This document shows positions 6,934-24,738 of a DNA stretch of 38,035 nt, one piece after another. The DNA comes from Candidatus Methanomethylophilaceae archaeon (GTDB lineage: Archaea; Thermoplasmatota; Thermoplasmata; Methanomassiliicoccales; Methanomethylophilaceae), in contig JAFTYV010000012.1 of assembly GCA_017461225.1 (NCBI GenBank), positions 1 through 38,035 of the forward strand, read 5' to 3'. Position numbers and translations under genes: made by a program. Below the pieces are notes generated by a model. That model did not search any database and had not been told where the DNA came from. It saw only the letters and a list, made by a program, of their open reading frames with translations. Positions within the stretch are counted from its first letter, which is position 1; each line of letters opens with the position of its first letter.

Positions 6934-7590
6934 TCACATCCTCTTGCAGCCGCGGAGGAGCCACTCTCCGATGGATTTGAAACCGTACTTCAAAGTCGCC
7001 TTGAAGTGGCGGCTGTGGCTGAAGGGTTCCGCCCTGCCGCTCCTGACGTACTCCAGGACCTCCTGCCAGGTCCCCAGGTCGTCGGGGACGGTGACGTACC
7101 CATCCCCTATGTGACGGGGCGTGTGCGCATCGCTGCCGGCGGTGACTGGTTTGCCGATGCGCCGGGCGAGCCTCAGGGACTTCCTGTTGGCGGAGGGGAT
7201 GGACCTGCCGTTCATGGCCTCGACACCGTCGAACGGGTGCTCCAGCGTGTTCCTCTCGCCGATCCCGGACCACCAGCGATACGGGTGCGCCGCGATGGCG
7301 TACCCCCCGGCCTCGTGGATGAGGTCGATGGTCTCGGATATGGATCTGTCCCTGGGGATCTCCCTGTCGATCCCCAGGGCGACTATGTGCCCCTCGGAGG
7401 AGGAGACCTCCTCCGCGGGGATGATCATGACCTTCCCGTTGTCCCTGAGAACGTGGTACGCCTCGAAGCTGTTGTGGTCGGTGACCGCGACGCAGCCTAT
7501 ACCGTTGCGGACGGCGTACTCCACCAGCTCCTCCGGCGTGGTCCTGCCATCGTCGGAGAAGCAGGTGTGGACATGGAGGTCGACCCTCAT
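6934..7590 (-). CDS. PHP-domain metal-dependent phosphoesterase
   Basis: The 218-residue protein has the ordered PHP metal ligands: DLHVHTCFSDD at the start, TDHN near residue 38, PAEEVSS near 60, AAHPYRW near 100 and GSDAHTP near 155. PHP proteins of this short type act on nucleotides such as 3',5'-bisphosphates or on phosphorylated small molecules (YciV/trpH-like); the substrate is not evident. Its ATG overlaps the MetRS stop as ATGA, so it is translated with metG. A second PHP protein lies at 13251. Confidence 0.85.
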   Translation of the reverse strand: MRVDLHVHTCFSDDGRTTPEELVEYAVRNGIGCVAVTDHNSFEAYHVLRDNGKVMIIPAEEVSSSEGHIVALGIDREIPRDRSISETIDLIHEAGGYAIAAHPYRWWSGIGERNTLEHPFDGVEAMNGRSIPSANRKSLRLARRIGKPVTAGSDAHTPRHIGDGYVTVPDDLGTWQEVLEYVRSGRAEPFSHSRHFKATLKYGFKSIGEWLLRGCKRM

Positions 7591-18323: not shown

Positions 18324-18346
18324 GACGGGTGCGTCACGCACCCGTC
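18324..18346. terminator. Stem-loop between convergent genes
   Basis: GACGGGTGCG and CGCACCCGTC form a perfect 10-bp stem with a TCA loop, followed on the plus strand by CTTTTCTC. It sits in the 39-base gap between two convergent genes and can end both transcripts. Confidence 0.7.
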
Positions 18347-21837: not shown

Positions 21838-22211
21838 TGGAGCGTGTGTCGACCGACTCGGCCCCCGCCGCCGTCGGACCCTACTCCCAGGCCGTCGTCC
21901 ACGGCGACCTGGTGTTCGTCTCCGGCCAGATCCCGGTGGATCCGACCGACGGTTCGGTACCGGAGGATATCGCGGAGCAGACCGCCCAGGCGCTCCGCAA
22001 CCTCCGCAACGTGCTGGAGGCCGCCGGGTCGGGGATGGACAGGGTCCTGCGCGTGACGGTGTTCGTCAGGGACATATCGAGGTTCCCGGACGTGAACGCC
22101 GTCTACGCCGGATTCTTCACGGAACCGTACCCATCGAGGTCGTGCGTGGAGGTGTCCGGACTGCCGAAGGGCGTGTCCGTCGAGATAGACGCGATAGCGT
22201 TCAGAGGCTGA
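21837..22211 (+). CDS. ridA: RidA-family enamine/imine deaminase
   Basis: The 124-residue protein has the YjgF/RidA pattern: AAVGPYSQAV at residues 11-20, VFVSGQIPVDP, and the Arg-containing active-site strand SRSCVEVSGLPKGVSVEIDAIA. These enzymes hydrolyse reactive enamines released by PLP enzymes, which fits its position after cysK and metA. Translation is coupled to metA through TGATG. The 3' end overlaps the convergent radical SAM gene by 11 bases. Confidence 0.93.
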   Translation: MERVSTDSAPAAVGPYSQAVVHGDLVFVSGQIPVDPTDGSVPEDIAEQTAQALRNLRNVLEAAGSGMDRVLRVTVFVRDISRFPDVNAVYAGFFTEPYPSRSCVEVSGLPKGVSVEIDAIAFRG

Positions 22212-23334
22212 CGGTGCCGGGGTTGATGAGCTTGCCGACGATGGCGTCCCTGACGAACCTGTTGTAACCGCTCATGTCGGGCTGGTTGTCCAGGATGTAC
22301 TGGATCTCGGAGGACACGTGCGAGAAGACCTCGCGGAATATCCTGCAGGAGTCCCCGCCGTTCTCCTCCAGCCCGCACTCGTGGTAGGCATCCATGCTGC
22401 ATCCGCCGTTGCAGTAACTGAAGATGGGACAGGATGCGCACTTCTCGCGCCTCTTCACGGAACCGAGCAGGATCCTCCTGAACCCCTCGGAGCGGAAGGC
22501 CTCGTCTATGCTGCCGACGGTGTTGATGTTGCCCATGAGGAACTCCTCCGGACACGCCTTCGCACACGGGTAGATGTCGCCGTTGGGGTTCACGCAGAGC
22601 CACTTCGTCAGACAGGACGTGTGTGCGCAGTCCGCGGGCATGGGATCGCCCAGGTAGTTGAGGATGTAGAGGTAGTGGGGGATGAGGGGCACGTCGTGCT
22701 CCGAGTCGTGTAACCACTCATCGAACACCTCGATGCTCCCGCGTATGTACTCGTCGGGATCCGGGACGGTGCCGTTGCACCTGGCGCATCCGGCGGGGAT
22801 GACCGGTGAGAACGAGACGTTGGTGCCGTCGCCGCGGAAGTGCTCGTAGATCTCCCTCTGATGGAGTGCGGTCTCGCGGCATATGGTGGCGCTCACGGAG
22901 TACTTGTTCTCCTTGGAGGAGAGGGCGGACAGGGCCTTGGACACATCGCCCTCCCTGAGGACGTTGTTGAAGGGTCCCTCGTACGAGACGCCCACGTTTA
23001 TCGCCTTGGACCTGCAGTACGCCATGAACCTCCTGTTCAACTGGAGCCCGTTGGTCTGGACGGTGTTCCCGTATCTGAACGAGCCCTTGCCGAAGTGCTC
23101 CTCCTGGAGCTCTATGGCGTCCTTGAAGAACGACATCGGCATGGTGAGGGGTTCCCCGCCGTGCCATATGAACCACGCGGACTCGTACTCCTCGGACACC
23201 ATGCGTATGAGCCTCTCGAGGGTCTCATGGGACATCCTCCCGGGGACGCGCTCCTCGGGGGTGTGGTAGCAGTGCTTACAGTCCGTGTTGCAGAAAAGGG
23301 TGGGTTTGACTACCACCGAGATGTAGGGTTTCAT
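22201..23334 (-). CDS. SPASM radical SAM enzyme, probable peptide maturase (anSME-like)
   Basis: 377 residues. The SAM-cluster motif is C15-X3-C19-X2-C22 (LFCNTDCKHCY). The anaerobic-sulfatase-maturase hallmark FIWHGGEPL is at residues 55-63 and QTNG at 93-96. The C-terminal SPASM region has many cysteines (241, 247, 257, 261, 299, 302, 308, 312 and 320 among them), enough for two auxiliary 4Fe-4S clusters. This class oxidises Cys or Ser in proteins or forms thioether bonds in peptides. No sulfatase gene is in the window, while the gene immediately upstream encodes a Cys-rich peptide, its likely substrate. It sits seven bases after an intercistronic stem-loop. Confidence 0.88.
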   Translation of the reverse strand: MKPYISVVVKPTLFCNTDCKHCYHTPEERVPGRMSHETLERLIRMVSEEYESAWFIWHGGEPLTMPMSFFKDAIELQEEHFGKGSFRYGNTVQTNGLQLNRRFMAYCRSKAINVGVSYEGPFNNVLREGDVSKALSALSSKENKYSVSATICRETALHQREIYEHFRGDGTNVSFSPVIPAGCARCNGTVPDPDEYIRGSIEVFDEWLHDSEHDVPLIPHYLYILNYLGDPMPADCAHTSCLTKWLCVNPNGDIYPCAKACPEEFLMGNINTVGSIDEAFRSEGFRRILLGSVKRREKCASCPIFSYCNGGCSMDAYHECGLEENGGDSCRIFREVFSHVSSEIQYILDNQPDMSGYNRFVRDAIVGKLINPGTVSL

Positions 23335-23341
23335 GGGAGAT

Positions 23342-23369
23342 CCCGTCGCAGACGATGCACTGCGACGGG
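23342..23369 (-). promoter_or_regulatory. Intercistronic stem-loop between peptide gene and radical SAM gene
   Basis: CCCGTCGCAG and CTGCGACGGG are a perfect 10-bp inverted repeat with an 8-base loop. It starts ten bases after the peptide stop and ends seven bases before the maturase ATG. Such a stem can act as a partial terminator or mRNA stabiliser, giving more peptide than enzyme, and it may also cover the maturase ribosome site. Confidence 0.6.
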
Positions 23370-23379
23370 TATGTCCTCA

Positions 23380-23676
23380 TCAGAAGGGCCAGTACGTCCA
23401 GACGCCACCGAATCCGTTGGTGACGTAGCAGCAGCAGGCACAGCAGACGACGACGCATCCTCCGAGGCAGGCGTACCATCCCGCGGAGTTGCAGCATCCC
23501 TTGTCGTCACAGCAGCAGTAGTTGCACTTGGAGAGGCCCTCGTGGTCGCCCTTGTCGTAGCGCTCTGCGTGCTCGGAAGGGGGGAGTCCGTGCATCGCGA
23601 TGGTCATGAACGCTGCGGGGGACTGGCTCTCGTAAAGTGCGGTCAGTTTGTCTACGGAATCTGCATCGTACGACAT
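23380..23676 (-). CDS. Cys-rich peptide, putative RiPP precursor
   Basis: The 98-residue product has a Cys-free N-terminal half (residues 1-50, charged, leader-like, ending near GDHEGLSK) and a Cys-dense C-terminal half. Thirteen cysteines lie at 51, 54-56, 61, 62, 70, 74, 78, 79 and 81-83, many adjacent (CNYCCCDDKGCC; CVVVCCACCCYV), then a Gly/aromatic tail ending in WTYWPF. I do not recognise a named family. Leader-core layout plus the adjacent SPASM maturase suggests a thioether-modified peptide; a metal-binding protein is the alternative. An AGGTGA ribosome site seven bases before the ATG and a TATA box at 23737-23744 support expression. Confidence 0.75.
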   Translation of the reverse strand: MSYDADSVDKLTALYESQSPAAFMTIAMHGLPPSEHAERYDKGDHEGLSKCNYCCCDDKGCCNSAGWYACLGGCVVVCCACCCYVTNGFGGVWTYWPF

Positions 23677-23736
23677 GGATTATTCACCTGGATATGTAAC
23701 TCGAACGGGGTTCGATGGTCGGCCAACCGATTGCGC

Positions 23737-23744
23737 ATATATAA
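23737..23744 (-). promoter_or_regulatory. Promoter of the Cys-rich peptide operon
   Basis: On the minus strand the sequence reads TTATATAT, about 60 bases before the peptide ATG, leaving a short leader with an AGGTGA site. The near-palindrome GGTCGGCCAACC at 23718-23729 lies around the expected start of transcription and could be an operator. The divergent gene has its own CTTTATTA at 23795-23802. Confidence 0.6.
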
Positions 23745-23826
23745 CGATTTAGTTGGTCTCCGCCCGCATCCAGTACGGTCGTCCGGAGACACGCCTTTAT
23801 TACCCCGTCGCCCATCGGGTGAGCCG

Positions 23827-24738
23827 ATGTTCGGATACACCGTCCCCGCCTACGGCCGCCTGTCGCCCGCCGACCTGAAGCTCTACAGGAAGTACTACTG
23901 CGAGGGATGCCATCAGCTCAGGGACGGTTTCGGCCTCACGGGGGCCACCACGGTCAACTTCGACATGACGTTCAACACCATCCTCCTGAACGGCATCGTC
24001 GGCGATGTCCGGGACTTCGAGGGTACGACGAAGACCCTGTGCGTCCTGGAGCACTCCAAGGCGGACTCCGACCTCATGAGGAAGATGGCCGCGTACACCC
24101 TGATCCTCACCAAGTGGGAGCTCCACGACGACGAGACGGACAAGCCGTCCGCGAAGACGAAGGTCATCTCGACGGTCCTCCGCGGCGCCATCGACAGGGC
24201 GGTCGCGATGTACCCCGACTACGACAGGATGGTCGGCGAGGGCTTCGCCAGGCTCAGGGACCTGGAGCTCGCGGGATGCAGGGACGCACGCCTCATGGGA
24301 CGCACGTTCGGACAGGGGCTGGTAGGTGCGCTGGCGGACATAGCCGGCGACCATGCGTCCCCGGACCTGGACAACGTCTTCGTGGAGCTAAGCACCGCGG
24401 TGTACCTCATGGACGCCATCGACGACCTGGACGACGACTTCATGGACGGGACGTACAACCCATTCCTGCCGGAGCACGGCTTCGTGAACGCCAGGGACCT
24501 GATCTCCAAGGACATCTACCGCATGACGTCCGTCCTGAACGAGACCATGGGCTCCCTGCAGGGATCCTACTCGCGCATCAGGGGCGGCATGGTCACGAAC
24601 GTGGAGCTGTGCGACAACATCGTCTACCAGGGCATCCCCGAGTCCGCCAAGAAGGTCATAATGGGCGAGGCCAAGGCGAAGGCCAGCATCAAGAACATCC
24701 TCTCGAACCGCAGGGAGAGGAACTCAGACAGGTCCTGA
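23827..24738 (+). CDS. DUF5685-like protein
   Basis: The 303-residue helical protein begins MFGYTVPAYGRLSPADL followed by YRKYYCEGCHQLRDGFG, the CxxC-bearing opening I associate with DUF5685. Later it has the aspartate-rich MDAIDDLDDDFMDGTYNP, which resembles the metal-binding Asp clusters of all-alpha isoprenoid-synthase folds; that resemblance is suggestive only. The TATA-like CTTTATTA 25-32 bases upstream gives a leaderless transcript. It is divergent from the Cys-rich peptide operon with only 150 bases between the starts, so it may belong to the same system. Confidence 0.65.
   Translation: MFGYTVPAYGRLSPADLKLYRKYYCEGCHQLRDGFGLTGATTVNFDMTFNTILLNGIVGDVRDFEGTTKTLCVLEHSKADSDLMRKMAAYTLILTKWELHDDETDKPSAKTKVISTVLRGAIDRAVAMYPDYDRMVGEGFARLRDLELAGCRDARLMGRTFGQGLVGALADIAGDHASPDLDNVFVELSTAVYLMDAIDDLDDDFMDGTYNPFLPEHGFVNARDLISKDIYRMTSVLNETMGSLQGSYSRIRGGMVTNVELCDNIVYQGIPESAKKVIMGEAKAKASIKNILSNRRERNSDRS

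Follow-up and report, generated by a model that had tools for sequence, protein, structure and literature searches.

What does a perfect stem-loop do in the short gap between the gene for a small cysteine-rich peptide and the gene for its putative maturase, in the archaeal stretch of 38,035 nucleotides analysed here (the window)? Comparison with the same gap in related genomes suggests that the mRNA folds back on itself, thereby controlling the amount of peptide that is made. The operon is read on the minus strand and is laid out as follows.

23737..23744, minus strand: TATA-box-like TTATATAT, picked out by eye as the presumed, probable operon promoter
23380..23676, minus strand: cysteine-rich precursor open reading frame of 98 amino acids, assigned from the reading frame and its relatives
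23342..23369, minus strand: stem-loop with a perfect 10-bp stem and an 8-nt loop, assigned from sequence, folding and covariation in 11 and 14 sequences
22201..23334, minus strand: radical SAM/SPASM maturase of 377 amino acids, with PF04055 and PF13186 above the gathering score and the TIGR04085 domain above its cut-off

The layout is that of a RiPP operon, with a Radical_SAM and SPASM enzyme beside a small conserved peptide gene whose product is only predicted to be modified. No Pfam or NCBIfam model matched the precursor at E ≤ 1, and among the 25 of 58 NCBIfam families listed, the maturase reached the cut-off of no equivalog. One scan returned 46 relatives of the operon, all of them archaeal records, and a precursor end (WPF, WPN or WPY, then TGA) lies beside the maturase in 46 of the 47 loci including the window, the exception being L034. 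The tail of the precursor is strongly conserved (GFNGVWTYWPF or similar) and follows a cysteine-rich hydrophobic stretch. Between the precursor stop and the matched maturase start lie 1 to 53 nt, although the matches in L038 and L040 start inside the gene, so that their distances are not true gaps. In two Methanoplasma records (L030 and L031) only 1 nt separates the stop from the start, pointing to coupling by reinitiation in loci that lack the hairpin. All 46 loci in which a precursor end was found use TGA as the stop codon, a uniformity for which GC content may account; hairpin-directed recoding of UGA was considered and rejected, because the codons past TGA are not alike by eye. Matches to the maturase query (E ≤ 0.001), some of them distant, occur in 82 of 102 genomes of this gut-methanogen family, and one genome (G007) has two, on contigs C14 and C9, that are 46% and 45% identical to the maturase of the window. 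Our literature search did not find Methanomassiliicoccales, RiPPs and radical SAM enzymes treated together. Given the spread of the maturase across the family, control of this operon bears on a widespread, unstudied peptide.

An initial annotation of the window had described a perfect 10-bp stem-loop lying wholly within the gap, and the sequence bears this out. Read on the minus strand from 23369 to 23342, the arm CCCGTCGCAG is followed by the loop TGCATCGT and the arm CTGCGACGGG; the hairpin sits 10 nt past the precursor TGA and 7 nt ahead of the maturase ATG in a gap of 45 nt. Folded alone, the gap reaches −24.2 kcal/mol (z = −4.4), a stability attained by none of 200 shuffles; when 50 nt of flanking sequence is included at either end, z weakens to −2.45 and 6 of 200 shuffles equal the real sequence. 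A bare perfect 10-bp stem is only mildly unusual in this window: perfect stems of at least 10 bp with loops of 3–10 nt occur in three places, against a mean of 0.83 (range 0–5) in 30 dinucleotide shuffles. The other perfect stems of this length with short loops are at 7350–7379 and 18324–18346. What sets the gap hairpin beyond chance is the combination of double changes in its stem, its conserved loop and its constant place in the relatives that have it. An Rfam scan of the window at the gathering score returned three tRNAs only, placing the hairpin in no known Rfam family. A genome-wide repeat of the REP or MITE kind was ruled out, since its own genome holds one strong match, with the next at E = 1.5.

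We then drew the comparison at the level of the genus, where 29 of 31 genomes have a maturase match and 28 loci were analysed, G062 being left out because its match starts at a contig end. A locus was called a carrier when its gap was at least 30 nt long and held a hairpin with GCATCG in the loop, which gave 14 carriers among the 28 loci; G077, whose GCATCG lies in a gap of 15 nt that has no such stem, was not counted. The initial annotation had named compensatory changes in related genomes as a check on the stem, and they are there: in the first 11 sequences, double changes that preserve pairing occur in 5 of the 10 pairs, 96.3% of cells are paired, and covariation scores 0.391, compared with 0.184 ± 0.032 for shuffles, none of 500 of which scored as high. 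Over all 14 carriers, read on the gene strand, the stem cells comprise 125 Watson–Crick pairs, 8 G·U, 1 A·C and 3 others. Since the wobbles fall on the gene strand, selection has probably acted on the RNA of this operon, and the compensatory changes make the gap stem very probably a selected RNA structure. The loop core GCATCG is present in 14 of 14 carriers by selection, and the base that follows it is T in 13 of 14. In G050 the loop is kept and only the inner half of the stem differs, being also shorter. At E ≤ 0.01, a covariance model of the hairpin found 13 of the order's 147 genomes, all of this genus and with one strong match each, and missed G050; at E ≤ 1 it matched 33 of 102 family genomes, the 20 beyond these 13 scoring 0.014 or worse.

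The conserved loop has an exact counterpart some 300 nt upstream, at the start of the precursor gene.

23352..23359, minus strand: the 8-nt loop UGCAUCGU, found by sequence comparison to be the reverse complement of precursor positions +8 to +15
23662..23669, minus strand: the partner site ACGATGCA, precursor positions +8 to +15 (codons 3–5), with CGATGCA kept by 13 of 13 carriers as against 0 of 14 other loci

In the window, ACGAUGCA in precursor codons 3–5 (23662–23669) reverse-complements the loop UGCAUCGU exactly, so that a downstream motif is complementary over 8 nt to the initiation region of its own mRNA. Both traits could be read in 27 loci, G070 (with the loop GCAUCGC) being excluded because its contig stops short of the precursor start. 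Across them, CGATGCA stands at +9 to +15 in all 13 carriers and in none of the 14 other loci; with ACGATGC as the criterion instead, the counts are 12 of 13 and 1 of 14. Positions +9 to +15 are wholly invariant in carriers; so are just four of the 14 third codon positions from +6 through +45, three of these being +9, +12 and +15; background use in these genes is 35% for GAT, 29% for GCA and 76% for TAC. For 10 of the 13 carriers, no other site among about 1,470 in the operon matches the loop as well, and arbitrary 8-mers of the window operon have an exact complement within −40 to +40 in only 1 of 1,360 cases. The lowest-energy duplex partner of the loop within −40 to +45 overlaps +8 to +15 in 13 of 13 carriers, and the summed duplex energy of 19 loci (−265.3) lies below that of all 200 shuffled-target sets (lowest −235.9). 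In carriers, the loop and the site are 300–318 nt apart. This complementarity, which the initial annotation had not seen, points to control of the peptide itself.

The locus G068, counted among the 14 others, changes both sides at once. Its loop GGUAUCGC faces GCGAUGCC with 8 of 8 positions paired, including double changes from U-A to C-G and from U-A to G-C plus one G·U; random loops pair fully with this site in 0.03% of draws. In G067, by comparison, +8 is G and would wobble with the loop U. The long-gap loci whose start is known number 19. Thirteen of them are carriers and G068 keeps its match; the match is weak in G065 and lost or altered in G056, G057, G061 and G069. Neither the pairing in G065 (7 of 8 with three G·U, and better sites elsewhere) nor that in G056 (loop against the start codon, 6 nt) was counted as support. 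At the level of sequence, these comparisons establish that the stem covaries on the gene strand, that the loop is conserved and complementary to codons 3–5, and that loop and partner change or are lost jointly.

Several results limit the case for pairing. On the maturase tree, the hairpin and the partner each require at least four changes, and supported branches yield three independent contrasts, all in the same direction (p = 0.25), a number so small that significance is out of reach; with ACGATGC as the criterion, one of the three agrees. Swapping loops among the 19 loci reached the real sum in 544 of 10,000 permutations, which is not significant in a test of low power, because most loci share one motif. 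G066, G067 and G052 have 2, 3 and 1 equally good sites in the operon, respectively, and lack the +15 pair, and the G068 loop finds a better match at +386 than at the partner site. When whole gaps are used, the observed Watson–Crick run is reached by 0–6 of 100 shuffles in 12 carriers and by 42 of 100 in G067, and the first-listed longest run of G066 and G059 falls on the Shine–Dalgarno (SD) motif and not on +8. GATGCA is also present in the outgroups L023–L025, which have short gaps without such a hairpin, so the partner codons may predate it. The partner site is itself partly paired locally, with a mean unpaired probability of 0.32–0.59 in carriers. Codons 2–9 (23651–23673, minus strand) can fold locally into a hairpin that takes in part of the partner site, a candidate competitor of the long-range pairing; in several carriers it would join CGAUG with CAUCG.

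Upstream of the partner site, the leader of the precursor offers two further elements.

23684..23689, minus strand: SD-like AGGTGA of the precursor, read from the sequence
23701..23715, minus strand: small leader hairpin TCGAAC-CCC-GTTCGA upstream of the SD, from sequence and local folding

A GGTG motif similar to this SD is found in the leaders of most relatives. The leader hairpin may mark the 5′ end of the mRNA; many relatives have an inverted repeat of other sequence in its place, even those without the gap hairpin. The main partner of the downstream motif is codons 3–5 and not the SD itself. A second contact is nevertheless conceivable, in that in 9 of 13 carriers the segment between stop and stem forms a Watson–Crick run of at least 5 nt with the final 14 nt of the leader, for example ATTCAC or TCACC against the SD GGTGAAT (carriers such as L067 and L048). 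The summed runs reach 66 against 48.2 ± 3.3, with none of 2,000 shuffles as high, and with G·U allowed 75 against 63.7 ± 3.5 (p = 0.0025), in both cases over related rows and in a test made after the pattern had been seen. Singly, only G066 and G059 fall below p = 0.05, and in the window the contact is 3 nt only. We regard a contact of the stop-to-stem segment with the precursor SD as a lead. Activation by a freed SD was rejected: when the partner site is opened in 14 loci, the accessibility of the SD rises by at least 0.05 in three (G067, G071 and G063) and falls by at least 0.05 in three (G059, G050 and G064), and the lack of any consistent rise argues against an activating role. Also rejected was the idea that the stem brings an SD (GAGG, 23375–23378) near the maturase ATG, this motif being absent by eye from the gaps of relatives.

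We propose that the gap hairpin is a cis-acting element of long-range pairing in the precursor–maturase mRNA, which would latch peptide synthesis to initiation at the maturase, and we give this reading an even chance of being right. The stem would present the loop, which would pair over 7–8 bp with precursor positions +8 to +15, about 300 nt upstream, and this pairing would form in cells. Positions +8 to +15 fall within the stretch covered by the initiating small ribosomal subunit, and a duplex at this place should therefore hinder initiation; after transcription of the gap, it would lower new initiation on the precursor. The loop thus probably masks the initiation region of the precursor while the stem covers the start of the maturase. 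By eye, 7–12 nt separate the end of the stem from the maturase ATG in the 14 carriers, only one of which (G050) has an SD-like motif after it (AGGG). A ribosome starting at that ATG must therefore open the stem, whereupon the loop would be lost and the precursor start freed. With the latch closed, both starts would be hindered; with it open, the peptide start would be free, a sense of regulation that we infer. The duplex of the site with the common loop UGCAUCGU, which was used for all carriers in place of each carrier's own, is predicted at −10.6 kcal/mol (−10.9 in G067), that of G068 with its own loop at −12.0 kcal/mol, and local opening of the partner site costs 0.8–5.1. By these energies, which carry no penalty for closing a loop of about 300 nt, the long-range pairing is plausible but not strong. 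An 8-nt contact in a short two-gene mRNA can easily be tested by mutation and compensation.

The alternative that fares best is that the hairpin only sets the dose of maturase, as a stem over its start or as a 3′ stability or processing stem of a peptide-only RNA, the loop match being an inherited coincidence. This we judge improbable, though by no means negligible. The initial annotation had proposed that the hairpin hides the maturase ribosome site, and this part of its interpretation stays plausible, given a stem that ends 7 nt before the ATG in the window, although it does not explain the conserved loop. A reading by dose alone also accords with the rarity of a clear SD after the stem, with partner codons that may be older than the hairpin, or independent of it, in some outgroups, and with the small number of independent contrasts; yet it leaves the exact complementarity and the joint change in G068 without an explanation as well. 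The loop could instead be recognized by an RNA-binding protein, which would repress or stabilize the mRNA. A conserved loop on a stem is a common form of such sites, and a covarying stem carries the loop here, but a protein site would have no need of a reverse complement at the upstream start region, found in 13 of 13 carriers against 0 of 14 other loci, nor of a loop and codons that changed together in G068; we consider it unlikely. No more probable is action in trans, by which a released small RNA derived from the 3′ end would pair with the precursor start of other copies of the mRNA or with other genes. The same complementarity would serve this purpose, and for icaR, too, the authors leave action in cis or in trans open (PMC3868564), but nothing points to a separate RNA here and no terminator-like end follows the stem.

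Two further readings survive poorly. A strong GC-rich stem between a product gene and an enzyme gene invites the view, also put forward in the initial annotation, that it terminates most transcripts after the peptide. Archaeal termination is not known to need a hairpin. No terminator-like site was found in 23200–23900, a run of at least four T just past the stem is seen by eye only in G052 among the 14 carriers, and attenuation would leave the conservation of the loop unexplained, all of which makes it very unlikely. Least probable of all is a DNA operator bound as a duplex by a dimeric regulator, which the inverted repeat and its spacer of near-constant length might evoke but which is at odds with the 8 G·U against 1 A·C wobbles on the gene strand, with a spacer that is better conserved than several arm positions, and with the divergent inner half of the stem in G050.

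The cis-acting reading can be set beside known systems. As in other radical SAM/SPASM RiPP operons, a small cysteine-rich open reading frame stands directly ahead of a Radical_SAM and SPASM enzyme; the enzyme here differs in falling below the equivalog cut-offs (25 of 58 NCBIfam families listed), and the precursor in having no model. To our knowledge, few cis-regulatory mRNA structures have been worked out in archaea, and a limited literature search found no archaeal case of such long-range self-pairing of an mRNA. Only tentatively, then, do we suggest that the gap element may be an undescribed archaeal RNA latch, with a stem over the enzyme start, a loop on peptide codons 3–5 and, in some species, a contact with the SD, allowing peptide synthesis only during initiation at the enzyme gene. 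In RNA phages, as in the control of replicase by the MS2 coat gene, an upstream coding segment masks a downstream start over a long distance. The proposed pairing would likewise span hundreds of nucleotides of one RNA, linking a gene to the region where another element starts, but in the opposite sense, with a downstream loop facing an upstream start. RNase III cleavage is not expected for a duplex of 8 bp.

Such cleavage belongs to the case of the icaR mRNA of Staphylococcus aureus, in which a motif in the 3′ untranslated region base-pairs with the SD region of its own mRNA, blocking formation of the initiation complex (PMC3868564). The two cases share a short motif, located downstream of an open reading frame, with complementarity to the initiation region of its own transcript. 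The partner is codons 3–5 here and the SD in icaR; the motif is the loop of a hairpin between two genes here and part of a long 3′ untranslated region there; and the host here is an archaeon, in which any such effect is a prediction. The gap element would therefore resemble the icaR pairing in principle, while differing from it in partner, form, place and domain of life.
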